Source: Agriterribacter humi (GTDB lineage: Bacteria > Bacteroidota > Bacteroidia > Chitinophagales > Chitinophagaceae). From it: 64,000 nt of DNA. Below are positions 8,156 to 46,744 of this stretch, one piece after another. The stretch's first letter is position 1. Each line of letters begins with the position of its first letter. A program made the translations under genes and the position numbers. The stretch lies in contig NZ_VOHQ01000007.1 of the NCBI RefSeq assembly GCF_009192765.1, positions 186,001 to 250,000 of the forward strand. The letters are read 5' to 3'. Under the pieces are notes generated by a model. The model was not told the DNA's origin and searched no databases. It was given only the letters and a program-made list of their open reading frames with translations.

Positions 8156-10224
8156 ATTAGAATAGTTTTATAGTTTTCAGTAATGCTTTTCGCCAAAGCA
8201 ATTGCTTCTTCGTTCAATCCTTCCAACTCAATATGTATTTCGTTCAGGCGTTCTTCGTAGTCAAAGTCATCATCGGTGGCGGTATCCACGCCAACATACC
8301 TGCCGGGGCTTAGGCTCCAGTCTTTGGCTTCTATTTCTTTTTGGGTTACAACTTTGCAAAGTCCCTCCACATCGGCATACACGCCATCAGGAAATCGGCT
8401 CGTAAGCCAATGGGCTTGTTTGTAGAAATATTCGGTTTCGTGCAGCAGTCCGAGGTCTTCTTCACCGGGGTTGCCGCTGAGTTCTTGTTGCAGGGTTTTC
8501 AGTTGGTCGAGCTGTTCTTTCAGCTTCAGGTCTTTCCAGTCTTTGTTTTTGTTCAGTTGGTATTCTTTGGCGGCTGTGTTTATTGCATCCAACAGTTGCT
8601 TAATGAGTTTGTCCTGGGGTTTGCGTAATGCTTTGCATAAGTGGGCAATGCTTTCTAAAATGTCAATATCGGCTTTTGCCTTTTTCGCTTCGGCAATCAG
8701 TTTGTTTTGTTGTTGGTAAACCTGTGCCGTTTCCTCAATTTTTAACGCTTCCACAAATGCGTTTGCGGCTTTATTTTCTTTCACGTATTTGCTGGCAAAG
8801 TCACTTGCAGTTTTAAATACCTTCTGCAATTGTGTTTGAAGTTCAACAGTTGTTTTTGCTATGTCTTTAGCCCGACTCGCTGACTGTTTCAGGTAAAGAT
8901 GAATGGTGTTTTCAAAGATCTTCCTATTACCCCGGTACAAATTCACAATGCAAATAAGGTTCTGTAGCTGTTCGGGGCTAAAATCGTTTACCTTGCTCGT
9001 TACCTTGCGGTAAATCTTACGGGCATCGAGCATCAGTGTCTTGTCGCTTTTCTTTTTGTCGGTTTCTTTTGCCCGGTCAAAAAACCAAAGTGTGCAGGGC
9101 AATGAACGGGTATAAAAAAAATTGTTTCCAATAGCCATCATCACATCCACCGCGCCTGTTTTTACCAACTTCTCCCGTATGTCTTTTTCGCTATGGCCTG
9201 CATCACTGGCAGAAGAAGCCATCACAAAACCTGCTCTGCCTGTAGGTTTCAGGTAGTTGTAGAAATACTGTATCCACAAATAATTGGCGTTGTCGTTTTT
9301 GGGCAGGTTTACTTTGCCATCCAGTACTAAGCGGAGGTCTTTCTTTACAGCATCTTTTGCTTTGTCCACACCATCCACATTAAATGGGGGATTAGCCATT
9401 ACAAAGTCAGCACCGCCCACCAGGTTGTGTTTATCTTCATAAAAAGTATTGCCCTCTTTTATGTTGCCTTCCAGTCCGTGCACTGTCATGTTCATTTTTG
9501 CCAGCTTCGTATTCAGGTCAGCTTTTTCCTGCCCGTAAAAGGTAACTTTTTCAGCTGGCTTCAGTCCGATACTCTCCATAAAATAGCCTGTTTGCACAAA
9601 CATACCCGCACTACCGCAGGCAGGGTCAAACACAATGCCATGGTCGGGTTCAATCACGTTTACAATGGTTTGCACCAGGCTCATAGGCGTAAAAAACTCT
9701 CCCCCTTCCTGTGCGCCGGTCATCGCAAATTTGTTGAGAAAGTATTCGTAAATCTTCCCGAACAGATCGCCTTCGGCTTTTTGCAATACCTCTTTATTGA
9801 AAATGCGGAGCAGTTCACGCAACAGGTCTTTACTGAAAATGGAAAAGTTTTTGGGCAAAACACCTTTGAGGTTTTCGTATTCGTCCTCAATCAGTTTCAT
9901 AGCGTTGTCAATCGCTTCGCCTGTGTCGGCACTTTCGGGCAATGCTACCAGATAGTCAAATTGTGCTTTTTCGGGCAGGAACATGGAGTTTTGCTCTTCA
10001 AAATCTTTTTTGGTCAATGCCCGTTTTCCCCTTTGCGGATGCGATGGCAATGTTTTTTCTAATTCAGTTTTTACTTTTTTAAACCGGTTGTACGCGTGTC
10101 GTAAAAATATCAGGCCAAGAACCGGCATTGAGTATTCCGAGGCAGTCAGTTTACTATTAGCCCTCAGTTGGTCTGCTGCCCGCCAAAGTTCCGCTTCTAA
10201 TTTTCTCAGTTGTTTTCCTTGCAT
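8152..10224 (-). CDS. hsdM: Type I restriction enzyme DNA methyltransferase subunit
   Basis: N6-adenine DNA methyltransferase subunit; with HsdS it protects host DNA and with HsdR forms the restriction complex. From the ATG at 10224 it is 690 residues: N-terminal helical domain 1-150, AdoMet motif I at about 200-207 (DPACGSAG), catalytic NPPF at 278-281, and a long C-terminal helical/coiled extension, which makes it longer than the 500-residue E. coli type but normal for this Bacteroidota class. The frame continues upstream to a TTG at 10308 and an ATG at 10305, but the ATG at 10224 starts the conserved QLRKLEAELWRAADQLR segment and is preferred. It is the first gene of the operon hsdM-hsdS-GxxExxY-RhuM/Fic-hsdR. 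Confidence 0.94.
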   Translation of the reverse strand: MQGKQLRKLEAELWRAADQLRANSKLTASEYSMPVLGLIFLRHAYNRFKKVKTELEKTLPSHPQRGKRALTKKDFEEQNSMFLPEKAQFDYLVALPESADTGEAIDNAMKLIEDEYENLKGVLPKNFSIFSKDLLRELLRIFNKEVLQKAEGDLFGKIYEYFLNKFAMTGAQEGGEFFTPMSLVQTIVNVIEPDHGIVFDPACGSAGMFVQTGYFMESIGLKPAEKVTFYGQEKADLNTKLAKMNMTVHGLEGNIKEGNTFYEDKHNLVGGADFVMANPPFNVDGVDKAKDAVKKDLRLVLDGKVNLPKNDNANYLWIQYFYNYLKPTGRAGFVMASSASDAGHSEKDIREKLVKTGAVDVMMAIGNNFFYTRSLPCTLWFFDRAKETDKKKSDKTLMLDARKIYRKVTSKVNDFSPEQLQNLICIVNLYRGNRKIFENTIHLYLKQSASRAKDIAKTTVELQTQLQKVFKTASDFASKYVKENKAANAFVEALKIEETAQVYQQQNKLIAEAKKAKADIDILESIAHLCKALRKPQDKLIKQLLDAINTAAKEYQLNKNKDWKDLKLKEQLDQLKTLQQELSGNPGEEDLGLLHETEYFYKQAHWLTSRFPDGVYADVEGLCKVVTQKEIEAKDWSLSPGRYVGVDTATDDDFDYEERLNEIHIELEGLNEEAIALAKSITENYKTILI

Positions 10225-13186: not shown

Positions 13187-13545
13187 ATATACTAAATCTA
13201 AATTTTATTCCTTCTTTTTCACAATCATTCCCTCCCTTCCCGGCGTATTCATCACCAGACCAGCGCAGGACATCTCCCTAGTTGATACTGTGAAACAGAC
13301 AGTGCCTGATTTGCCCCGACACTGCCGGATAAGTTGTAACCAATCTTACCCCTTTTTAACCCTTAATATTTTCCGGCAATGCCCTCCCATATTGAAAAGA
13401 GGATTTGCCAGGAGAATATTTGATCCTGCAGGATCAATCCTGGTCAACTAAGATAATTTGTGAGATCAAATACAGCGCTTTACATTTTATGCGCCCGCCC
13501 GGTAAACCATTCCGATCTGTCAACGACTCCCCGCTCTTTTCCACT
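13187..13545. other. Gene-free stretch with an 18-bp perfect palindrome
   Basis: No gene seen. It contains the perfect palindrome TTGATCCTGCAGGATCAA at 13420-13437, immediately followed by a partial repeat of its half (TCCTGG). The palindrome has no T tract and is 220 bases before the second DHFR copy; it could be a protein-binding site, but nothing assigns it. Confidence 0.5.
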
Positions 13546-36120: not shown

Positions 36121-36572
36121 ACTGTAAGGGTTGCTTTGCTTACTTTAGGGCATTTGCTGCATATATAGTCATCAAACTGATAATAAATATGCTCCCTGGC
36201 TTTTTCTTTCTTTAACGTGTCTATTTTTTGTTCCCTGACGATGTTTTCATACGAAGCGGAATCAAATTGAATAATGTTGCTTGACGTACGTTGCTATATC
36301 CGTTACATTGTTTTGTGAAGCATACAAAATCATGTCCTCTACCAACCTTTTTAATCTGAATATTTCACTATTCATTTTTTCATAATCTCCTGTTGCAGGC
36401 GGCAGGAGATTAGAGATAGTTCCTTTTGATTCCAATATTGAGCTGGAATTTTTATGCCGGTGAATAAAATTGGTTTCTGCTTTTGATTAAAGCAATAACG
36501 AATGAAGATAGAAGAAGTGTCATCATTATGTACTCTGTTGGTACGGCAAATAACTTTTACTGGAAATCGCAT
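36121..36572 (-). pseudogene. Tyrosine recombinase (integrase) relic 2
   Basis: Minus strand, start ATG at 36572 (MRFPVKVICRTN). The arm-type DNA-binding domain is readable as SIFIRYCFNQKQKPILFTG and KIPAQYWNQK, then the frame shifts; the next frame reads ISNLLPPATGDYEKMNSEIF and RLVEDMILYASQNN, and a third frame reads ENIVREQKIDTLKKEKAREH and YYQFDDYICSKCPKVSKATL, the start of the SAM-like core-binding domain. Homology ends near 36121; the catalytic domain is gone. The first shift could be one A lost from the four-T run (plus strand) at 36424-36427. At least two frameshifts plus truncation make this a pseudogene. It reads leftward, away from the 25-bp repeat at 36628. Confidence 0.75.
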
Positions 36573-36627
36573 AGCTAACAATTTTTGAACTGGACTCGAC
36601 AAAACTTGGGTCTACTTCCAGGTCTAC

Positions 36628-36652
36628 TTTTTTAAATTGTTAAGCTGATATA
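36628..36652 (+). repeat. 25-bp direct repeat, right copy
   Basis: Identical to 17770-17794 and in the same orientation. It lies 56 bases upstream of the start codon of integrase relic 2, the position expected for an attachment site at the integrase end of an element. Confidence 0.8.
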
Positions 36653-36730
36653 AAAATAAATCTTCCTGCGTTGTAAATTTGTTATAAGAAGATGAAAATC
36701 AATCCCTTGAAAGCAAAGTAGTGTAAAAAT

Positions 36731-36758
36731 AAAAAAGGATCATCATTGCTGGTGATCC
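36731..36758 (-). terminator. Stranded intrinsic terminator, probably the original one of tRNA-Asp
   Basis: On the minus strand: GGATCACCA, GCAA loop, TGATGATCC (9-bp stem with one mismatch), then TTTTTTATTTTTAC. It sits 6 bases beyond the left 13-bp copy of the tRNA-Asp 3' end at 36765 and has no gene of its own to terminate. Position and strand are those of a tRNA-Asp terminator separated from its gene by the island. Confidence 0.65.
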
Positions 36759-36764
36759 TCCTAA

Positions 36765-36777
36765 GCGGACCGGACGG
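36765..36777 (+). repeat. attL-type copy of the tRNA-Asp 3' end (13 bp)
   Basis: GCGGACCGGACGG, identical to 46416-46428 which includes the last 12 bases of tRNA-Asp (minus strand). Classical signature of tyrosine-recombinase integration into a tRNA gene. Confidence 0.8.
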
Positions 36778-36938
36778 CGGACTGGCCTCTTTTTACATCT
36801 ATCCATTACTTTACATATCCTTACATTAAGAATTAATTTTTAAGTAATTGAGTGAATTATTCACTTACACCGCATTTTATCTTCACATGACTTGATAGGC
36901 CTGACATAGAGTAAACGATAGAGTAAAAACGTCAAGTT

Positions 36939-37704
36939 ATGATATATGCACTCAAACCGATCTGCAAGAAAGACTGGAAAAGAAGAAATGGGACCAGCCT
37001 GGTCTTTATTCAGTATTGCATGGGTTCAAACCAGCGCACCCTGGTTGATACACAGATCGCCATTCCTCCTGAATACTGGAACAGAAAATTATTAAAAGTC
37101 TATGACGATCTTCCGCCGGAGTACGGCACCGCTGCTGAGTTGAATGAACGCTTGCAGAAAATGATGCGGCTGGTAGAAGATATTTTGAGCTTCTGTTTGA
37201 AGAACACAAGAGATAATCCAATGTTCTTTTTGAAAAAGAACTTTTCGCCTGATCTCGATATTACTACCCTGGAACAACGCAAGGAGAAAACAGGAAGCTT
37301 GGATGTATATGATCAGTTCGATGCGTATATTGAATCGAAGAAAAGAAGGATTGCACCGGCAACAGTGAACATTTACATGGAAGTTAAAAGATACCTGCAG
37401 GCATTTGAAAAGTTCAGAGGAAGAAAAATAACCTTTAAGTCCTTCGATGTGGACTTCTATCATGAGTTTATTGAGTTCAAAATACAAATGGATCACCTCT
37501 CATTCCTGCCGGAGATCATTTTGCACTAATGAGTTTTTAGCGGGTACACCTGTTGAGTTGATCATGAAAATTAGCGGCCATAGAAGCCTGAAAGACTTTT
37601 ATCGGTATATCAAAGTGACACCCGACCAGGCGGCTTATCAGATAGAGAAAATTTGGAAGGAAAGGGAGCAAGTTTTGGGCGGACTGGTGGTTGGGTCTGC
37701 GTAA
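36939..37704 (+). pseudogene. Tyrosine recombinase (integrase) relic 1 with internal deletion
   Basis: Probable integrase of the tRNA-Asp island. ATG 36939 opens a good arm-binding domain (SLVFIQYCMGSNQRTLVDTQ, IPPEYWNRKL) and a SAM-like core-binding domain (LDVYDQFDAYIESKKRRIAP, then VKRYLQAFEKFRG). After DFYHEFIEFK the sequence jumps, at about 37485, to the end of the catalytic domain in another frame: SHSCRRSFCTNEFLAG, MKISGHRSLKDFYRYIKV with the HxxR arginine, the GH of the second histidine and the catalytic Tyr. About 150 residues including the first catalytic arginine are missing and the join is out of frame; translation of the first part ends at 37529. It cannot be active. Confidence 0.85.
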
Positions 37705-37744
37705 CTGGCTCTATTTCAAAACATAATTTCATGCGATATTAACG

Positions 37745-37776
37745 TTTGCTATAGTGAACATTTAAACCTATATTTG
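37745..37776 (+). promoter_or_regulatory. Bacteroidota-type promoter of hipB-hipA
   Basis: TTTG at 37745-37748, 20-base spacer, TATATTTG at 37769-37776. Both boxes and the spacing match the consensus TTTG-N19-21-TAnnTTTG exactly. Predicted transcription start is near 37783, 12 bases before the hipB ATG. Confidence 0.75.
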
Positions 37777-37794
37777 TTTATTATAGTGAACGTT
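37750..37794 (+). promoter_or_regulatory. Paired HipB operator candidates
   Basis: The 13-base direct repeat TATAGTGAACRTT occurs at 37750-37762 and 37782-37794, 32 bases (about three helical turns) apart. The first copy lies between the two promoter boxes, the second over the transcription start and up to the ATG. HipB proteins repress their operon by binding such repeated sites. Confidence 0.65.
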
Positions 37795-38109
37795 ATGGAA
37801 AACAGAACAATAACCCTTACCCCTAAATTAGAGAAGATTCTAACTGAATTAGGAGGAAATATAAAGCTGGCCCGGTTACGAAGAAAATTAACCACCGAAC
37901 AAGTTTGCGAACGGGCTAATATTAGCCGAACCACTTTATGGCAAATAGAGAAAGGAATGCACAATGTCACGATCGGTGCCTATACACAAGTCTTATTTAT
38001 CCTTGGCCTTGAAAAAGACTTGCTGCGGGTGGCGACCGATGATGAACTCGGCCGGAGATTACAGGATGCCGATCTGGAAACTAAAAAAAGAGGACCCCGA
38101 AAAAAATAA
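37795..38109 (+). CDS. hipB: HipB-like XRE family antitoxin
   Basis: 104 residues from the ATG at 37795; an earlier in-frame start at 37774 would lie upstream of the predicted transcription start. XRE helix-turn-helix about 25-85 (IKLARLRRKLTTEQVCERAN, ISRTTLWQIEKGM) and a basic C-terminal tail ending KKRGPRKK. HipB binds the operon's operator and holds the HipA kinase in an inactive complex. The hipA gene starts 6 bases after the stop, the expected coupling. The site pair at 37750 and 37782 fits autorepression. Confidence 0.88.
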   Translation: MENRTITLTPKLEKILTELGGNIKLARLRRKLTTEQVCERANISRTTLWQIEKGMHNVTIGAYTQVLFILGLEKDLLRVATDDELGRRLQDADLETKKRGPRKK

Positions 38110-38115
38110 ATCGCC

Positions 38116-39360
38116 ATGGACATTTTAGTTTACGCCGACTGGATAGAATTAGAAGGGCCCGCCTTAATGGGAACGCTCTCGGTTGCCCATACCAAGGGAC
38201 GGGAGATTTTCTCATACGCTTATGACAAGGCATGGTTGGTTAGAGGGCTTGCTCAAAACTTAGATCCCGATCTGCAACTTTTCGCAGGCACTCAATACCT
38301 TTCACCCGGAAAAAAGAATTTTGGAATTTTTCTCGACTCATCACCTGATAGATGGGGACGTGTTTTAATGGTAAGAAGAGAAGCCATTAGTGCAAGAATG
38401 GAATCCAGAAAGGCAAAGACACTTTTTGAAGAAGATTACCTCCTTGGAGTATTTGATGCACACCGGATGGGCGCTCTCAGATTTAAAAAAGATGCAAATG
38501 GCCCATTCTTACATGATAACGCAAGCCTTGCATCGCCTCCCTGGACATCATTACGGGAACTTGAATTTGCAAGTTTGCAATTGGAAAAAGATGTATTGAC
38601 GGACGAGGAATCATTGAAATGGCTCAATATGTTAATGGCCCCGGGTGCATCGCTTGGCGGGGCACGGCCAAAAGCAAGTGTAGTTGATACAAAAGATAAT
38701 TTATGGATAGCAAAATTTCCCAGTGGAAACGACCATGTTGATATAGGTGGTTGGGAAATGGTTGTTAATGTACTTGCTAAAGAAGCTGGTCTGAACATTG
38801 CTGATAGCCAGGTAAAGAAATTTAATAGTAAACATCACACTTTTCTTTCAAAAAGATTTGACAGAGTCAAGGGTAACGGCCGTATTCACTTCGCCTCTGC
38901 CATGACATTGCTTGGCTATTCGGACGGAGCCGAAGGTGTTTCCTATCTTAACCTGGCTGAATTCATCATGCAAAATGGCGCAAACGTCAAAGACGATCTG
39001 GAAGAATTATGGCGACGAATCGTTTTTAATATTTCTGTAAAAAATACAGATGACCATCTTCGTAACCATGGATTTTTGCTCACTTCCCAGGGATGGATAC
39101 TTTCTCCGGCTTTTGATGTTAATCCTGTTTACCACGGAAGAGGTTTGACACTAAATATTTCTGAGACGGATAATTCTTTGGACTTTGACCTGGCAAGTTC
39201 AGTGGCAAAATATTTCAGGGTGCCAGGAAATAAAGCAACTACAATCATTTCTAAAGTACAGCAAGCTGCAAGCAAATGGCAAAAGGTTGCAAAAGCCTAT
39301 AAGATTCCTGCCAGTGAACAGGATTTGATGGCTCAGGCTTTTGAAAAGTCCGCTCCTTAA
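38116..39360 (+). CDS. hipA: HipA family serine/threonine kinase toxin
   Basis: 414-residue full-length HipA. N-terminal subdomain about 1-110, kinase core about 145-390 with the P-loop-like SLGGARPKA (179-187), ATP-site Lys200 (LWIAKFPSG), the catalytic NTDDHLRNHGF at 310-320 with Asp312/Asp313 and the metal-binding Asp334 in SPAFDVNP. HipA kinases phosphorylate aminoacyl-tRNA synthetases (GltX, TrpS in studied cases) and cause dormancy. All residues needed are present, so the toxin looks active. It follows hipB by 6 bases and is itself followed by a phosphoesterase gene 11 bases away, which suggests a three-gene operon. Confidence 0.92.
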   Translation: MDILVYADWIELEGPALMGTLSVAHTKGREIFSYAYDKAWLVRGLAQNLDPDLQLFAGTQYLSPGKKNFGIFLDSSPDRWGRVLMVRREAISARMESRKAKTLFEEDYLLGVFDAHRMGALRFKKDANGPFLHDNASLASPPWTSLRELEFASLQLEKDVLTDEESLKWLNMLMAPGASLGGARPKASVVDTKDNLWIAKFPSGNDHVDIGGWEMVVNVLAKEAGLNIADSQVKKFNSKHHTFLSKRFDRVKGNGRIHFASAMTLLGYSDGAEGVSYLNLAEFIMQNGANVKDDLEELWRRIVFNISVKNTDDHLRNHGFLLTSQGWILSPAFDVNPVYHGRGLTLNISETDNSLDFDLASSVAKYFRVPGNKATTIISKVQQAASKWQKVAKAYKIPASEQDLMAQAFEKSAP

Positions 39361-39371
39361 AAACATCCGTT

Positions 39372-40130
39372 ATGACATTACAATATTGTTCCGATCTGCA
39401 TTTGGAATTCAGAGAAAATAAACAATTTCTAAATCAGCATCCTCTTCAATCTAAAGGTGAAATTTTAATATTGGCCGGTGATATTGTCCCATTTATTGAG
39501 ATGGATAAGCACAAAGAGTTCTTTAATTACATTTCAGACAATTTTAAATTGACTTATTGGCTCCCTGGTAATCATGAGTATTATTATTCCGACGCGTCCG
39601 AACGATCAGGAACAATCAATGAAAAAATAAGGGATAATATATTTTTAGTGAATAATATCTCATTTCAACACAATGATGTAAGGCTTATTTTTTCTACATT
39701 ATGGTCAAAGATCAGCCCTGTAAACGAATGGCAGATCGAGCGCAGCATAAACGATTTTCAGGTTATCAAATTCAATGGACATTTTTTTTCTGTCTCCAAC
39801 TTTAATCAATTACATTCAGATAGTCTGAATTTTATAGACAAGGAATTAAGCCAGAATAATGCTGGTAAAACAGTAGTCGTTTCTCACCACGTACCTACTT
39901 TTTTGAATTTTCCTTCTCAGTATAAAGGAAGTATTTTAAACGAGGCCTTCGTTGTTGAGTTATTTCCTCTAATTGAATCTTCGAATATTAATTATTGGAT
40001 TTATGGACACCATCACAGTAATACCCCGGAGTTCAGCATTGGGAACACTGTCTTACTTACTAATCAAATGGGATATATTAGAAACGAGGAAAATCAGGAT
40101 TTCAGGTTAGACAAGATAGTAACCTTGTAA
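39372..40130 (+). CDS. Calcineurin-like metallophosphoesterase
   Basis: 252 residues with every calcineurin-fold motif: Asp8 and His10 (SDLHLEF), Asp37 (LAGDIVP), GNHE at 66-69, SHH at 171-173 and GHHHS at 212-216. It should be an active two-metal phosphatase, phosphodiesterase or nuclease; the substrate is not known. There is no signal peptide, so it acts in the cytoplasm. The gene starts 11 bases after hipA on the same strand and lies within the island, so it is likely transcribed with hipBA. A role in undoing HipA phosphorylation, or as an additional effector, is possible but is inference only. Confidence 0.88.
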   Translation: MTLQYCSDLHLEFRENKQFLNQHPLQSKGEILILAGDIVPFIEMDKHKEFFNYISDNFKLTYWLPGNHEYYYSDASERSGTINEKIRDNIFLVNNISFQHNDVRLIFSTLWSKISPVNEWQIERSINDFQVIKFNGHFFSVSNFNQLHSDSLNFIDKELSQNNAGKTVVVSHHVPTFLNFPSQYKGSILNEAFVVELFPLIESSNINYWIYGHHHSNTPEFSIGNTVLLTNQMGYIRNEENQDFRLDKIVTL

Positions 40131-40140
40131 ACAAAGATGA

Positions 40141-41238
40141 CTACCTTTTAAAAGATAGATTCCCCCTGTCAACATCTTTCAATAAATCATCTTCGCCTTC
40201 AATCATAGGATCATACCAATCTGCTTTCTTATGAGACCACTCCAGCCAACTTTTTATTTTTTCGGGGGCATCGTTTTGTCCTATTGTCTTTTCTACTGCA
40301 GCAAGATAATTACGAAGATTATTCACCTTCTACCACCGCTCAGCTTTTACCATCAAATCTTTGAATTCGCTTAGTTCATTTTCTTTTAGTTGCTGTGCAT
40401 CTATCACAGCCTGGCGTTTCCTTTCTATTTCCTCGAAATATTTTCGATTCTTCTCCTGTTCAGCCGTCAATTCGGCGCTGGCTATTTCCAATTTAGAAAC
40501 AATCTCGGGTAAATAATTTTCCAACGGTTGTTTTCCATCTTTCCATTCCTTACTGGAGTAGCCGTCATACTTAAAATATAAAATATTAACCGGGTGATAT
40601 TCGGAACTATCGTAGTGCTTTCCCGGGACAATAACTCTCTTTGTTTTTCCCCGAAAGAAAATCCTGAATTCCTGCTCCTTTATAATGGCGTAAGTGAAGC
40701 CATTTTTTAAGATAGTCTCATGCTTTCTTGCCCTGAGTGCTTTTATCAAAGTATCCATAAACAGCAAAGCCCGGTTTATATTTTTTGGAGTGACCTTTAT
40801 ATCCAGCCCATCTCTTGAACTGGAAACCATCCCCTGGTAAATGAAAGTGTCTTTATTGGTTAAGTATTGCCTGGCTTCAATAATCAATCTATCTGGATGA
40901 CTAAGCCTATCTGGAACAGTAAAGGATAGTACAGGATCACTCTTTATTTGTTTCGTTAAAACAGATAATGACTCAGTATTTTTTTTCTCATCAGCCGTTC
41001 GTAATGATAAAGTGAAGGTTACTACTCCTTCAAACGATTCAGGAAACGGAATAATACGGACTTTTTTTCCGAATTGCTGCTTCATCCAATGGCCTGCTTT
41101 CGGTAATGGAATGTTCATCCGCTTGCATATCTTGCGTAAGCCGTTATCAGAAATTTTATACCTTTTTGATAAAGATAACATTGGTTCAGACCATACCAGA
41201 TCATAGAGGTCTTTTCGGGTGACTGTTATTTCGCTCAT
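40141..41238 (-). pseudogene. HTH-containing protein of unknown function, interrupted by an in-frame amber codon
   Basis: The 302-codon frame 41238-40330 ends with TGG TAG, but the same frame continues past TAG (AAG GTG AAT) for another 62 codons to 40141 with sensible protein sequence (NNLRNYLAAVEKTIGQNDAP, SWLEWSHKKADWYDPM). In family members I recall, this C-terminal helical segment belongs to the same protein, so the gene is probably split by one nonsense change, giving about 365 residues if read through. The N-terminus is a helix-turn-helix of a widespread uncharacterised family (DLYDLVWSEPMLSLSKRYKI, then KICKRMNIPLPKAGHW); a coiled coil lies near 265-295. It follows the TOTE gene by 50 bases on the same strand, so the two are probably an operon. 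Function unknown. Confidence 0.7.
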
Positions 41239-41288
41239 TTTTATTTCTTAGAGATTTTGACTAATATGCAAGCTAACGGGAATACCCC

Positions 41289-44200
41289 CTATATCAATTT
41301 TTCCTCCAGCATCCCCTTCCAGGCAACAAACCCCTTCTTCGAATCCGCATAATCGTGAACGACTCTGCTAAAATTATTACTCTCTTTCTCCAAAAAAGCT
41401 TGCCTGCCATTTTGCTTTATATCCCTAAGTATTGATTCAATCTCTCCAAGAGTAATTCGTAAAGACTCCCTTGTTCTATCCGTATGCCAAATATAGGTGG
41501 CCTCTTCGCTATCCAATGTTTCCCATATAATATGATATTTCTTTTCACCTGCTAATAAGAATAAAAAAGAAAATGGTTGTAAGACAAATCTCAATTTCAA
41601 AACTGAAGCTTCATGCTTAGAAGAAAGATATTTTAGCTGCAAATAATGCTTTGAGTTCTTAATGTTTAGAATGTCATCAAATAGGGCAGCTTCGGATGAA
41701 AATAATTTCTTCCCTTCGTCATATGGACTCAACAAATCCTCCATCGTATGGATAGATTGATCATCCGCGGCCCGGCCTCTGCCTTTAAAAATCTCACGTT
41801 TTACAAACTCAAACCGAACACTATCAATCATGTGACCATTTATGCTATCAATGTCTTCTGATTTGGCTGTTGATGATAATATGTGGCTGGCGGTGTATTT
41901 TACGGTAATATTTGCGAAGATTAATTTCTTTTTCAATGCCTTTATGAAATAGTCACGGATGGCTGCAAACTCTGGTCTTATATCTGGGTTAGCGATTTCG
42001 AATATAATTTCCTGGTTAAGTTCATCAATGAAGATGGGAAATGAAACACTTCCAAATAAGAAATTAATTTTTCCAAAAGGCACTTTCATTGTTTTCAAAA
42101 CAACATACTCGGTAGGAGCCAGCTCTTTTTTATCATCTTCTATTCTTTTAGTGTCAATAATAGGCTGATGTTTTAGTATAACGGATCTTAGGAAACTACT
42201 TGTGTCCAGGCTTCTGAATTTTATTCTTTCAATTCCATAAAAATAAAATGAACCCTGTCTGCCATCTGTAACCTTGCTAATTGGAAAATTATAGTCAGTA
42301 ATTTCTGTAACTAACTCCCCTTCCTCTTCATTATAACTATTGACACGTAATTTCCAGACCACTCCATCTTTAAATTGCTCAACAGGTAATGGCAAATCAA
42401 GACATTCAACGGGGAGTAAATTATCAGTGGTATTGATGTAAAAACCAGCCCCCTGAAAGACCAGCAATATTTCATCCAGGTTTGTTAGTTGTCCTGACTT
42501 CATCAATTTCCGATAATACTTATTGCGCTGCCTGAACAGGTTGTTAAGGTATTCAATCCTGCAATCCCTGTAATCATATATAACCGGGGCAACCGGACTT
42601 CTCTGAACCCGACCGATATATTGAATCAGTTTACCTTCAAAAGAAAAGGGATAAGCCAAAACCAGGCAATCTAAAACACCGATATCCGTCCCTTCTCCAA
42701 TAAATTGACCGGTGGCGATCAGTACCTGGAAATCGCTGCTGTCAATTAGTTGCAGTTTCGCTTTCTTAGATTGCTCGCTATCTTCTCCGGTCAATGCAAT
42801 TGTTTCACAAGTACCTTTCAGATATTGTTGTAGTATATCAACATGGGCTTTCCGCTCGGTTAATACAAGTATCTTTCTGCCAGCCCTTACTTCCCTTTTA
42901 ATATCTTCTACGATCATTTCATTTCTTGCCGTATCATGAATAAGGATATTTAAAAGTGTTTCAGTTTTATCCGTTGAGGCATCAAACGGCGTAAATAATT
43001 CTGTGTTTTGAATGACTACCGATAATTGTCTATTCTGGTTTGCAGTTATAGGGATGACCACTTCATGAATTATATCGCCAATGTGAATAAATATCAGCTT
43101 TTCATCTTCGTTTTTTCTAATAGGAGTTGCTGTAAACCCATAGAGGTAATAAGAATGGAAGTGCCGTATTACTTCCCGGAATGTTTTGGCGGGCATATGA
43201 TGACATTCATCTACTATAATTGTTCCAAAGGCATGATGTAATTTGTCTTTGTCTGGCAGCTCCGGATTTTGCAGGCTTTGTATTATCGCTACGGTAATTT
43301 CTTGCCCAATTTCATAGCTACTACCATTAATTTTTCCTATTTGGAATTTTGGAATACCCAGAAAAGACTGAATCCTATCCACCCACTGATCAAACAATTG
43401 CTTTCGATGAACGATGATTAAAGCAGGTTGCTGCTTTCTTGCTACAATTTCTAAACCCATTACCGTTTTTCCTGCCCCCGGAGGCGCAACGATAACGCCA
43501 AAGTCTTTTTTATTAGTGATTTCAACCGCCTCTTGTTGATAGTCATGCAATGAAATGGAAGATGTAAATTTAACCGGTTCAAGTTTTACTCTTTTATCCT
43601 CAAATTTATAGGCTATTTTTTGTTCATTGCAATATCGGAGCAACCTGCCAATAATACCTCTTGGCATAATAATGGTATTCTCTTTTTCCTCTACTGTTTC
43701 AAAATACATTTGCGTACCATAAGTACTTCGTCCCGATCTCTTTTTAATAAGATAATCTACATTCATAAAATTCAGATTATCCTTTAGGTATTTTGACAAT
43801 AAGGAATCTAAGCCAAAGCGTGGCAATACGACCTGATTACTGAGAATGACTGTGAACTCGCCATTCAAAGAATTCGTAGCAACTGCTCCAATAGCAGAAC
43901 TGGTAAGTTTATTATCAATAATGTCCTCATACAATTCATCCAGCGTTTTCATTTTTACCTTTTGGACGGTTTCTAAGAACGCCCATTGGTCAGGAAATTG
44001 GTTTAAATTTTCTGGATGAATAAAACAGGCATTACCATTCTCCATAGCCTTCTTCTGTAAAGGCAAAGCAATAAGGTTGCCCAAGCCTTTACCCGAATGC
44101 CCATCCTGATTGGGAAATAGCCTGTCAAAATTTGAATTCTTTTCCACTTCAGATATGATGCCCGAAGATTTGAGGAGTTGAATAAATAGCTGCCTGCTTT

Positions 44201-44645
44201 TAAATGCCGGATAGGGTTCTCCAAAAAACATCCAGACATGGCCACCTGTACCAGATCTCGAACGTTCAAGGTAAACAGGTAGATTATACTTTTCACATTC
44301 CAGCATGAATGTCCGGCACTCGTCTATCCAGCTTTTGGTTTTGGCGGTGGACTGGTCGAAATCTGCCGCTATAAACCAGGATGTGTTATCCTGTAATAAA
44401 GGATAGACCCCTACGATTTCTTTTCCGGATAGATGGTTCCGCATTCTTTGATCCGTCAGCGGCGCATACTCTTTATTTTTAAAATCCTTTAACGTGCCAC
44501 CTTTTGTCTTGTGCATTTTAAATTGATCCCAGTCCAGGATATAGGCAGGCATATAACCGCTTTTGCCATCCCGTTCCCAGCGAATCGCAAAGGCATCCTC
44601 GCGGCCTTTAAAGAGTGATTTGAATATTTTCAGGTTCTGCACCAT
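41289..44645 (-). CDS. TOTE-type conflict system primase-helicase
   Basis: 1118-residue fusion. N-terminal archaeo-eukaryotic primase domain of the TOTE class, about 1-240: metal-binding Asp95 and Asp97 (FIAADFDQS), nucleotide-binding SGTGGH at 131-136 and a candidate third acidic residue at Asp174. A linker follows, then an SF2 helicase: Walker A PPGAGKT 388-394, DECHH 479-483, GFTATP 503-508 and lobe-2 motif VI (YIGRVQRSPV, about 655). The last 380 residues form a further alpha/beta region, with two repeated FxxIxFLFGS-like strands, that I do not recognise. TOTE systems were proposed computationally as defence/conflict systems; no mechanism is proven that I can cite. On its upstream side only fragments are present. 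A -7 match TAGTTTTG (minus strand, 44662-44669) lies 17 bases before the ATG. Confidence 0.85.
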   Translation of the reverse strand: MVQNLKIFKSLFKGREDAFAIRWERDGKSGYMPAYILDWDQFKMHKTKGGTLKDFKNKEYAPLTDQRMRNHLSGKEIVGVYPLLQDNTSWFIAADFDQSTAKTKSWIDECRTFMLECEKYNLPVYLERSRSGTGGHVWMFFGEPYPAFKSRQLFIQLLKSSGIISEVEKNSNFDRLFPNQDGHSGKGLGNLIALPLQKKAMENGNACFIHPENLNQFPDQWAFLETVQKVKMKTLDELYEDIIDNKLTSSAIGAVATNSLNGEFTVILSNQVVLPRFGLDSLLSKYLKDNLNFMNVDYLIKKRSGRSTYGTQMYFETVEEKENTIIMPRGIIGRLLRYCNEQKIAYKFEDKRVKLEPVKFTSSISLHDYQQEAVEITNKKDFGVIVAPPGAGKTVMGLEIVARKQQPALIIVHRKQLFDQWVDRIQSFLGIPKFQIGKINGSSYEIGQEITVAIIQSLQNPELPDKDKLHHAFGTIIVDECHHMPAKTFREVIRHFHSYYLYGFTATPIRKNEDEKLIFIHIGDIIHEVVIPITANQNRQLSVVIQNTELFTPFDASTDKTETLLNILIHDTARNEMIVEDIKREVRAGRKILVLTERKAHVDILQQYLKGTCETIALTGEDSEQSKKAKLQLIDSSDFQVLIATGQFIGEGTDIGVLDCLVLAYPFSFEGKLIQYIGRVQRSPVAPVIYDYRDCRIEYLNNLFRQRNKYYRKLMKSGQLTNLDEILLVFQGAGFYINTTDNLLPVECLDLPLPVEQFKDGVVWKLRVNSYNEEEGELVTEITDYNFPISKVTDGRQGSFYFYGIERIKFRSLDTSSFLRSVILKHQPIIDTKRIEDDKKELAPTEYVVLKTMKVPFGKINFLFGSVSFPIFIDELNQEIIFEIANPDIRPEFAAIRDYFIKALKKKLIFANITVKYTASHILSSTAKSEDIDSINGHMIDSVRFEFVKREIFKGRGRAADDQSIHTMEDLLSPYDEGKKLFSSEAALFDDILNIKNSKHYLQLKYLSSKHEASVLKLRFVLQPFSFLFLLAGEKKYHIIWETLDSEEATYIWHTDRTRESLRITLGEIESILRDIKQNGRQAFLEKESNNFSRVVHDYADSKKGFVAWKGMLEEKLI

Positions 44646-44670
44646 CGTCTTTACTTAAAGGCAAAACTAA

Positions 44671-44859
44671 GAAAAGGGCAGCTTGGCAGTATGGCATAAA
44701 TCTTATGCGTTTAAAGTAAAGGTTGAATCAAAATTGAATGGATTTAAAGGACGCTGGCAGGGATCACTGGCCAGCCAGATTAAGGACTTACCGGAGTTTG
44801 ATTTGGTGGTGAGAGAGTTAAATAAACATTTCGGAAAATATAGAACATCGTCATACTAA
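44671..44859 (+). pseudogene. Short unrecognised gene fragment
   Basis: Open plus-strand frame without an ATG, ending 44859: KSYAFKVKVESKLNGFKGRW then QIKDLPEFDLVVRELNKHF. It reads like the C-terminus of a real protein whose front is missing. I do not recognise the family. It is divergent from the TOTE gene. Confidence 0.3.
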
Positions 44860-44980
44860 AGAAGTTTCCCTTGTTAAATGTACCTTGTCGAGGCACGGTC
44901 GTTGCTAAAAGCGTTTTTTACTTACCCTGCTCCAGTCTACACTAAAATTACGAGCATCTTAATTGGCTCAGAGCCCGCCG

Positions 44981-45226
44981 TTAGTTGTTTATCCAGTCTG
45001 TTGTGGTGTATTCACAACCATATAAGTAGTTTGAACAACCATAAAATTTATATGTATTTCCGTTTCTAGCAGTTCCTGATTTTCTTAATACAATGTCAGC
45101 AGTTTTACAAGTTGGACATTTTTTATTCGGAGATTGCTCACTTTCAATTTCTAACTCAGCAATGAATTTTGATTTAAAGGAACTGTCTGCTATACAAGCC
45201 TCTATAGTTTCCTGATGATCTTTGTT
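44981..45226 (-). pseudogene. C4 zinc-finger C-terminal fragment of a helicase/topoisomerase-type protein
   Basis: 81 codons on the minus strand, stop at 44981, in-frame stop upstream at 45227. The sequence CPTCKTADIVLRKSG, then FYGCSNYLYGCEYTT is a topoisomerase-type C4 zinc finger (CxxC...CxxxxxxxC), which in bacteria ends topoisomerase I, some UvrD-like helicases and some restriction-linked enzymes. Only this tail is present. No intact gene is visible between it and 45328. Confidence 0.6.
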
Positions 45227-45328
45227 TTATGAGTAACAGTGCGGCATTTTTTATCGCATGTTCGTCTGAACATATGGTAGCTTTTCAATAAATTATTGTT
45301 CTATGTTTCGAAAGAAGTCGAATTAGAT

Positions 45329-46282
45329 TTATTTCTCTTGATAATATACTGATTCTAACGACCTTAGTTTTTTATCTATTTCATTACTTAAAAACCGAAA
45401 TTTTGCTTTTCTAAAAATACCTGCCAAATTTGTAAGGGTTACAATTAACTGCTTGCGTTCTCCTTCATTTTTAAATTCATACAACCCTTTATTCCGACAA
45501 TCTTTCAATTGCTCAATCCAGGAATCTTTGCTCTTACCAGTAATGGCACATAAAAGTTCAGCCATGGAATCAAATTTATTAGGCCTGGTAAAATCAATTT
45601 TCTCCACCTTACCAGTTTCTGCAAGCAGATCAAAAAGGATAAGTATTTGCTTTTTGGAAAATACTCCTTTCTCCTTGCCCTTTATTCCAGCAGCTGCATT
45701 AACCGTCGTGTACTCATTAAAATAATGAGAGCTATTATGATAGTTATTGAATTCATTCCGGATTTGGAGAATAACAGCGGATTGATTTACTTGATAAAGG
45801 TTATTCCCTGATTTCTTTCCAAAATCAGGAGATATGATTTGCCGGACAACATGGGACAATGCTTCTTCAAAATTATTATCTGCTTCAGTTAAGAATGACT
45901 GTAGAATATGCGCATAGTTATTAACCAGTAACTTATTAATCCCTTCCGTTTGCAAAGGATAATAAGGCTTGCCAAACGATCCTATGTAATACAAAATGCC
46001 GGTAATCCGGGAAAGCAGGTATTTAAAACTATGGGAAGCCCGGTAATTTACAATATAGGCCAAGGGTTGAGGCAGCCCAGTATTGGCTTTGCTTTCCTTT
46101 TTAAATAGCTGATAAAGCCTGTAATGACCTAATAACCGCTGATAAATATCCTGGTTATACCAACCTGTCCACTCGAGGAACCGGCAATCCAGATGGCCGG
46201 TTAAACTGTTCAATTTGTCTTTCCATACATAATCCCTGTCCGGCAGCGGATGCCGGTGCAACACACTCAAATCCATACTCAC
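45329..46282 (-). CDS. Uncharacterised protein near the island end, weakly RteC-like
   Basis: 317 residues, mostly helical, no signal peptide or membrane helix. A segment near 215-300 (KKQILILFDLLAETGKVEKI, FDSMAELLCAITGKS, CRNKGLYEFKNEGERKQLIV) resembles in layout the end of RteC-type regulators of Bacteroides conjugative transposons, but the match is by pattern only. It lies 135 bases inside the right end of the island, beside tRNA-Asp, a usual place for excision or regulatory genes. The frame is intact and the ATG at 46282 is the first available. I cannot assign a function. Confidence 0.6.
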   Translation of the reverse strand: MSMDLSVLHRHPLPDRDYVWKDKLNSLTGHLDCRFLEWTGWYNQDIYQRLLGHYRLYQLFKKESKANTGLPQPLAYIVNYRASHSFKYLLSRITGILYYIGSFGKPYYPLQTEGINKLLVNNYAHILQSFLTEADNNFEEALSHVVRQIISPDFGKKSGNNLYQVNQSAVILQIRNEFNNYHNSSHYFNEYTTVNAAAGIKGKEKGVFSKKQILILFDLLAETGKVEKIDFTRPNKFDSMAELLCAITGKSKDSWIEQLKDCRNKGLYEFKNEGERKQLIVTLTNLAGIFRKAKFRFLSNEIDKKLRSLESVYYQEK

Positions 46283-46379
46283 GATTTTCTACTTAAATTT
46301 ACGGAAAGTCGTGTGAAGACGCGTAGGGAAATGCCAATAAAATGATCGCAGATAGAGTAAAAAATAGAGTAAAAACAAG

Positions 46380-46402
46380 AAACCCGCGACTATCGCGGGT
46401 TT
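46380..46402 (-). terminator. Intrinsic terminator after tRNA-Asp, inside the island
   Basis: Perfect 10-bp stem AAACCCGCGA / TCGCGGGTTT with a 3-base loop; on the minus strand it is followed by CTTGTTTTTAC. It begins 14 bases beyond the tRNA 3' end, on the island side of the att repeat. Confidence 0.85.
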
Positions 46403-46415
46403 GAGGTCTAATTAT

Positions 46416-46428
46416 GCGGACCGGACGG
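46416..46428 (+). repeat. attR-type repeat at the tRNA-Asp 3' end (13 bp)
   Basis: Right copy of GCGGACCGGACGG; overlaps the last 12 bases of the tRNA gene, so integration leaves the tRNA intact. Confidence 0.8.
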
Positions 46429-46490
46429 GACTCGAACCCGCGACCTCCGCCGTGACAGGGCGGCATTCTAACCAACTGAACTACCGATCC
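46417..46490 (-). tRNA. tRNA-Asp (anticodon GTC)
   Basis: 74 bases without encoded CCA. Acceptor stem GGATCGG/CCGGTCC (one T-G pair) with discriminator G, D arm GTTC...GAAT, anticodon stem CCGCC/GGCGG with loop CTGTCAC giving anticodon GTC, T arm with loop TTCGAGT. The 3' end serves as the integration site of the island at 36765-46428; the gene remains complete. Confidence 0.95.
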
Positions 46491-46744
46491 AAATTAACCA
46501 TCCCCAAACTTTGGTATTGCTACCTCATTTTTCAGGACGGCAAAGATAGGATTTTTGGCTTCTTCCCAAAAAGTTTTTTAAAAAATAGGACAAACCGGCA
46601 ACAGCCGAAAAGTTATCCAAAAAAATACCCACGGTATATTGTAGTTAAAGCACTTTCGGGAGATATAACATTTTTTTACCTCCCGACTGTATTAATTTGG
46701 CAGGATTGAGTTTGTTCCTGCCGCTTACTCCCAACAAATGCTAT

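Follow-up and report, generated by a model that had tools for sequence, protein, structure and literature searches.

A mobile primase-helicase with an AEP-TOTE domain, a C-terminal module and exchangeable neighbours in Agriterribacter humi

The stretch of DNA considered here, which we call the window, comprises 64,000 nucleotides of Agriterribacter humi (assembly GCF_009192765.1, contig NZ_VOHQ01000007.1, positions 186,001 to 250,000). On its minus strand lies a gene for a primase-helicase of 1118 amino acids (aa), in which an AEP primase domain named after the TOTE systems is joined to an SF2 helicase and to a long C-terminal module, divided here into the parts INS and CTD. It is followed by a gene of a helix-turn-helix (HTH) family, and an initial annotation had proposed that this pairing may define a sub-type of TOTE system. 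The two genes and their parts, with the support for each (ORF, open reading frame), are the following.

41289..44645, minus strand: primase-helicase, 1118 aa (ORF call and Pfam)
43935..44636, minus strand: AEP-TOTE primase domain, residues 4-237 (PF22548, 271 bits, curated cut-off 27)
42600..43556, minus strand: SF2 helicase, residues 364-682 (Pfam ResIII/DEAD/Helicase_C; best PDB match XPBII)
42111..42500, minus strand: INS part of the C-terminal module, residues 716-845 (matched in seven loci)
41292..42113, minus strand: CTD part of the module, residues ~845-1118 (71-sequence alignment, structure model, profile homology to a standalone family)
40330..41238, minus strand: HTH-family protein, 302 aa, stopped by an in-frame TAG (ORF call)
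40141..40329, minus strand: HTH frame continued past the stop (homology)

The anatomy first given to the primase-helicase, an AEP primase with DxD and SGxxxH residues fused to an SF2 helicase, agrees with the ORF, with Pfam and with a motif alignment. The primase domain scores above the curated cut-off of PF22548, and Pfam places ResIII/DEAD at residues 364-512 and Helicase_C at 582-682. Related loci were surveyed in a set of 84, comprising 80 from genomes (the best 80 of 250 confirmed matches) and four viral ones. D95, D97, S131, H136, the Walker-A residues K393/T394 and the DECH box at 479-482 are identical in all 86 aligned cores, namely those of the window, of 79 among the 83 loci where a primase ORF was called (L172 being taken as the same locus as L053) and of six further sequences, and the AEP catalytic residues are intact, as befits a member of that family. 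Among solved sequences, the AEP domain is closest to 7nqd/7nqf (E ~1e-17), which we take to be a CRISPR-associated Prim-Pol, and the helicase part to XPBII (E 1e-19), with RadD likewise matched; the SF2 core is shared with XPB-like and RadD helicases but, unlike in these, it is joined to an AEP domain and to the INS+CTD module. When the protein is compared with its homologue at locus L042 (taken as the same genome as G300), 972 of the 1118 residues are identical (87%), and the nonsynonymous (dN) and synonymous (dS) divergences are 0.066 and 0.592 for the whole protein (dN/dS ~0.11), and 0.051 and 0.535 for the CTD alone. Consequently, the primase-helicase is under purifying selection, its tail included. 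A second, broken AEP-TOTE copy is present in the same genome on contig C34 (L022 7918-10474), preceded by an AlbA_2/HATPase_c_4 gene; a more distant AEP-SF2 protein (L023 7474-10335) has, by eye, a phospholipase-D-type-looking end in place of the CTD.

Homologues of the primase-helicase come in three lengths, the core only (~711-732 aa), the core with the CTD (mostly 986-1013 aa) and the core with both INS and CTD (1107-1129 aa), some of their ORFs being cut. The window protein has the long form, as do six of the seven loci in which INS is matched (L044 split), and INS is absent from the ~1000-aa form. In a FastTree phylogeny, nine long and eight core-only forms join at a single node with 17 leaves and a printed support of 0.861, and the medium forms cluster separately, bar L124 and L125, which fall outside together with L123; the forms were labelled by length only, L124 and L125 being labelled medium while having no matched C-terminal module, and L044 entering as a long form split into two ORFs. 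The last ~380-400 residues of the window protein match no Pfam family, and the statement of the initial annotation that about 380 C-terminal residues are unrecognised has held, as Pfam, PDB-sequence and fold searches gave no accepted match and no known housekeeping domain was found. The candidates rejected were weak Pfam matches to baculovirus families in two of 71 members (E ~0.009, none in the window), a designed protein that was the best match of a PDB profile search (E 0.16) and, for a model of the tail, the best Foldseek matches in PDB (E 0.16) and in BFVD (E 9.2e-3 at a TM of 0.13). The structure prediction that had been suggested for the C-terminus yielded a CTD model with a pLDDT of 80 and a pTM of 0.54, and no fold match to it with E<0.001 in PDB or BFVD.

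In a profile search of 147 genomes of the same family, the CTD is matched in 17. Seven of these (G449, G408, G397, G435, G413, G365 and G418) have a 395-459 aa frame with the module and no AEP match there, and G315 has a standalone module frame of 445 aa. When seven standalone proteins were aligned with seven long-form tails by hhalign, columns 11-406 matched columns 4-433 with a probability of 100 and an E of 3.4e-53. This profile-profile alignment indicates that residues 716-1118 form a single module that also lives alone, as a protein family of 390-450 aa. The standalone profile was matched in 10 of 296 genomes of the phylum, mostly inside longer proteins. E1042, the ATYxW stretch at 1049-1053, H1097 and W1109 are kept in fused and standalone forms. 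As most residues common to both forms are aromatic or structural, the clearest polar ones being E1042 and H1097, they would speak for binding more than for catalysis. The neighbours of standalone members include a C5 methylase gene and one for a HATPase in L178, a SIR2 gene and AbiE-like genes named by eye in L182, and an N6_N4 methylase with ResIII in L185, while L206 7607-8803 and L207 7113-8327, from two genomes of one genus, have flanking genes in common. Sub-cut-off Pfam matches of L178 to DUF4505 (E 0.002) and Acetyltransf_6 (E 0.007) were not accepted. In three core-only loci (L105, L108 and L112) an AlbA_2-cluster gene comes next, overlapping or 5 bp apart, and it is possible that the module has been replaced there by a separate protein.

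A 9.65-kb element (36765-46428) carries the primase and HTH genes as cargo; it is inserted exactly at a tRNA-Asp gene, and its integrase is broken. Its remaining features are listed here.

36765..36777, plus strand: attL, 13-bp core GCGGACCGGACGG (exact repeat of the tRNA-Asp 3' end)
46416..46428, plus strand: attR, 13-bp core inside tRNA-Asp (direct repeat)
46416..46490, minus strand: tRNA-Asp (gtc), integration site (tRNA prediction)
36906..36930, plus strand: possible integrase arm sites, two ATAGAGTAAA-type units (25-nt repeat)
46352..46376, plus strand: second copy of the possible arm-site repeat, 92% identical to 36906-36930 (repeat search)
36939..37704, plus strand: broken tyrosine integrase (two ORFs, N-terminal 36939-37529 and C-terminal fragment 37447-37704)
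37774..38109, plus strand: HipB-like antitoxin (Pfam HTH_31/HTH_3)
38116..39360, plus strand: HipA-like kinase (Pfam HipA_C, 166.5 bits)
39372..40130, plus strand: calcineurin-like metallophosphoesterase (Pfam Metallophos, 54 bits)
45329..46282, minus strand: orphan protein of 317 aa, encoded at the tRNA end of the element (ORF call)

The 13-bp core occurs only twice within the window, the inserted unit is 9651 bp long, and the G+C content of the island is 38.4%, against 41.9% in the rest of the window. An empty site is seen in two of four congener tRNA-Asp regions, as expected of an integrative element with repeats at the end of a tRNA gene. In G300, window positions 36135-36777 and 46412-46495 are contiguous on L168 (9353-10006 and 9990-10073), and in G299 (L169) the flanks are likewise contiguous across the core. 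Within the integrase, the N-terminal part matches Pfam Phage_int_SAM_5 and Arm-DNA-bind_5, and the C-terminal fragment was identified by visual inspection. The left flank of the window (36135-36777) aligns to an integrase-like region in congeners L168 (9338-9799) and L169; insertion at tRNA-Asp may have happened more than once. Homologues of the metallophosphoesterase occur at primase loci L049 (62%) and L056 (52%), and HipBA, 61-63% identical, lies near the primase of L025; in G300 (L167) the 87% identical primase gene lies between two hipB-like stretches (9339-9876 and 13348-13544), one with a hipA start. The 317-aa protein has no match with E<0.01 in Pfam, PADLOC, NCBIfam or PHROGs, and a look-alike, judged by eye, stands beside the primase in G372 (L187 6144-6932).

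That the primase resides in a neighbourhood of conflict genes, as first annotated, is supported by the related loci. Within five genes of the primase at 83 of them, we found AlbA_2 in 15, AbiEii in 13, AbiEi in 8, Fic in 8, HipA in 6 and an N6 methylase in 6, as well as a tyrosine integrase in 11 and a serine recombinase in 7. These clusters were built from mechanically called ORFs of 60-80 aa or more, a procedure that may overlook genes that are short or overlap others, and their names rest on Pfam for few members (three AlbA_2, two Fic and one each of AbiEii, AbiEi, HipA and N6 methylase) or, for the integrase, the recombinase and a further 4-locus AbiEi-like cluster, were given by eye. The neighbour is within 300 bp of the primase in 11 of 15 loci for AlbA_2, 5 of 13 for AbiEii, 7 of 8 for Fic and 3 of 6 for HipA. 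AlbA_2 is on the primase strand in all 15 loci and immediately adjacent to it in 10 of them (P 1e-4 under an even distribution across ten positions), and Fic is immediately adjacent in 8 of 8 (P 3e-6 on the same basis), both P values being optimistic because the loci are related. The neighbours of the primase, namely AlbA_2, Fic, AbiE, HipA and occasionally HTH, are exchangeable. The distribution of the primase is patchy, AEP-TOTE exceeding its cut-off in 7 genomes among 295 of Bacteroidia and in 10 among 147 of the same family, that of the window included. The primase query also matches 265 of 72,556 plasmid records, in which, among the 40 matches listed, residues 2-5 to 714 are covered, and 1812 records of a phage collection, in which the 20 matches listed start at residue 266 or later and therefore concern the helicase only.

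The locus has an AEP domain named after TOTE, not a TOTE system. The acronym stands for TPR, OB, TBP and Effector, according to the excerpted text of PMC12458937, which cites Aravind et al. 2022 for it, and although the window resembles such systems in its AEP-TOTE domain (PF22548), SF2 helicase and conflict-gene neighbourhood, it differs from them in that neither TBP-TOTE (PF22721) nor S1CSD-TOTE-2 (PF22707), which would represent the TBP and the OB/S1-CSD components, has any match in its whole genome (S1CSD-TOTE-1 was not searched genome-wide). Pfam TBP is not matched in that genome either, and no TPR family was found among the seven island ORFs scanned, no genome-wide TPR search having been made. 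The initial assignment to a TOTE system proper was consequently rejected. In 80 genomes or records (G396 and G734, which give identical places, being counted twice), TBP-TOTE is present in 5 and S1CSD-TOTE-2 in 12 at E<=0.001 (7 over the cut-off), and in G396 and G420 TBP-TOTE is on another contig or ~2.4 Mb from the AEP gene.

Homology to the catalytic domain of CRISPR-associated Prim-Pols (CAPPs) is indicated by PADLOC model PDLC01465 (201.6 bits on the primase), NF040561 giving 99.7 bits, under its full-protein cut-off of 200. The neighbours scanned are HipBA, the phosphoesterase, the HTH protein, the 317-aa protein and the integrase, and no CRISPR-Cas gene was recognised among these ORFs, with no CRISPR search of the genome made. 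As excerpted, PMC8211822 describes CAPPs as DNA primases that prime DNA synthesis and are stimulated by GTP, includes a CAPP-Helicase type (CAPP_A) and reports that a helicase domain is present in most of the non-CRISPR CAPPs, which lie in mobile elements. The window protein is like CAPP_A and the non-CRISPR CAPPs in that 7nqd/7nqf are its closest solved AEP relatives, shares with the non-CRISPR ones a place on a mobile element, and is unlike CAPP-Helicase in its setting; it also adds a C-terminal module of ~400 residues that the excerpted parts of PMC8211822 do not mention. It further resembles the mobile-element primase-helicases of the PrimPol-PV1 supergroup in the fusion of an AEP to a helicase on a mobile element, but the helicases named in the excerpts of PMC5862659 are mostly of other types. 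The architecture was thus already known in outline, and, as far as literature searches show, the module and the exchange of neighbours seem to be new.

The HTH gene starts, as annotated, 50 bp downstream of the primase on the same strand. An ORF on this strand stands, but its extent does not: an in-frame TAG ends it at 40330, so that the boundary originally given, 40141, lies past the stop. Full-length homologues have mostly 374-395 aa, against 302 aa in the window, the stretch 40141-40326 resembles their C-terminus (31-53%), and a profile match to the family spans genome positions 226141-227238, including 2 TAG. The TAG after codon 302 may reflect either mutation or a fault of the assembly; some homologues are intact. 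The full-length homologue at L054 was modelled as a helical N-terminal domain, a middle part of alpha/beta type and a helix of ~83 residues, and this model finds no fold match in PDB (best E 0.29); a PDB sequence-profile match to MarR (E 0.32) was not accepted. Seven proteins of viral contigs (L127, L130, L131, L132, L133, L134 and L135; 544-607 aa) each have two matches to the N-terminal domain of the family.

The family is widespread, as had been stated, and it does stand beside AEP-TOTE primases elsewhere, yet it is very unlikely that primase and HTH form a two-gene TOTE sub-type in which the HTH protein would regulate or direct the primase. The close spacing in the window would fit such a system, as would the HTH genes at L054 (on the primase strand, 34 bp upstream) and L074 (on the other strand, 240 bp downstream) and one on plasmid NZ_CP094531.1 (L039 4341-9113) that directly follows a gene pair with S1CSD-TOTE and TBP-TOTE domains, a TOTE-type operon. 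However, the neighbourhood survey that had been suggested found the family within 10 kb of the primase in only those two of the 84 loci (flanks are often short, exceeding 1 kb upstream in 72 of 83 loci and downstream in 76 of 83), and the three arrangements, with that of the window, all differ, so that no recurrent oriented linkage emerges. No HTH-family ORF was found beside the 87% relative (L042, L167). The primase of L173, 92% identical to that of L054, has no HTH-family match and instead an AlbA_2-like gene (named by its likeness to that of L053) and another gene upstream. In addition, HTH is present in 8 of the 295 Bacteroidia genomes and the primase in 9 at E<=0.001 (7 over the cut-off), and each is matched in 11 of the 147 same-family genomes, but in both sets HTH and AEP-TOTE co-occur only in the genome of the window. 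As the window copy is moreover interrupted, the pairing defines no sub-type, and HTH as an obligate partner was rejected. Nor is the pairing purely accidental, because the family follows HsdR (L032, ~25 bp) and AbiEii (L027) as well as the TOTE-type operon; in L040, L041 and L203 no conflict gene was seen directly beside it. The HTH family is therefore an accessory of several conflict operons and not a fixed partner of the primase.

The locus combines its domain architecture with intact motifs, purifying selection, mobility, a patchy distribution, a modular C-terminus and an exchange of neighbours. Given the intact motifs, the purifying selection, the patchiness, the conflict-gene neighbours, the exact integration, the plasmid matches, the AEP relatives 7nqd/7nqf and the CAPPs of PMC8211822 as excerpted, we put at about one half the probability that the primase-helicase is a horizontally mobile, essentially single-gene conflict or defence factor, presumably directed against invaders. 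In such a role, the SF2 motor would engage invading DNA and open or remodel it, the AEP domain would initiate DNA synthesis on the strand thus exposed, an activity that related CRISPR-associated Prim-Pols have in vitro, and the replication of the invader would be disturbed or its DNA processed. The INS+CTD module could provide target recognition, partner binding or regulation, and AlbA_2, Fic, AbiE, HipA and HTH might act as interchangeable accessories. We advance more tentatively, and with some doubt, the idea that INS+CTD is an undescribed domain of new fold, the sensor or effector of single-gene primase-helicase immune factors, which would be a separate conflict protein that became fused to or was lost from the core, the core working with one exchangeable neighbour (AlbA_2, Fic, AbiE, HipA or HTH).

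Several observations weigh against a role in defence. Primase-helicases serve the replication of mobile elements too, no nuclease domain is recognisable in the protein, no PADLOC system covers the locus, the primase matches there being to CRISPR PrimPol models, and literature searches found no phage-challenge, biochemical or other experimental study of the AEP-SF2-CTD architecture. The neighbourhood evidence is correlative and the loci are related, the standalone genes L206 and L207 sit amid seemingly ordinary chromosomal genes, and in the congener regions L170 and L171 the tRNA side alone aligns and the left flank does not, so that these two carry no information on an empty site. A rather doubtful alternative, which deserves attention nonetheless, is that mobile elements use the protein for their replication or maintenance, in which case it would start replication of the excised island or help plasmids to establish. 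Its place on an integrative element and the matches in 265 plasmid records would agree with this, AEP-helicase fusions being typical of mobile-element replication, and, as excerpted, PMC5862659 reports that one All3500-family group ends in domains remotely similar to SF2 helicases. Nevertheless, the window helicase is of the ResIII/XPB-type SF2, unlike most fusions in those excerpts (RepA, DnaB, MCM, D5, VirE, DUF927 and DUF3987), none of the seven island ORFs scanned matches a relaxase or Rep family, and no rep gene is listed beside the primase homologue in three plasmid regions, for which the gene table is incomplete. A function in DNA repair or damage tolerance, combining repriming with XPB-like translocation, is unlikely: the helicase resembles XPB and RadD, and the primase resembles Prim-Pol-type AEPs, which would suit it, but patchiness, mobility and a neighbourhood of toxin-antitoxin and restriction-modification genes are unlike those of a core repair gene.

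Many mobile elements carry primase-polymerases that are fused to a helicase and lie outside CRISPR systems, and we know of no established purpose for them. The locus described here is a well-bounded test case, in that the ends of the element are exact, congeners show the empty site, an 87% identical relative is available for controls and the extra module has a standalone family. The neighbour survey cautions against the naming of sub-types from a single adjacency, and the role of the module, if shown, would help to separate defence, mobile-element copying and DNA repair.

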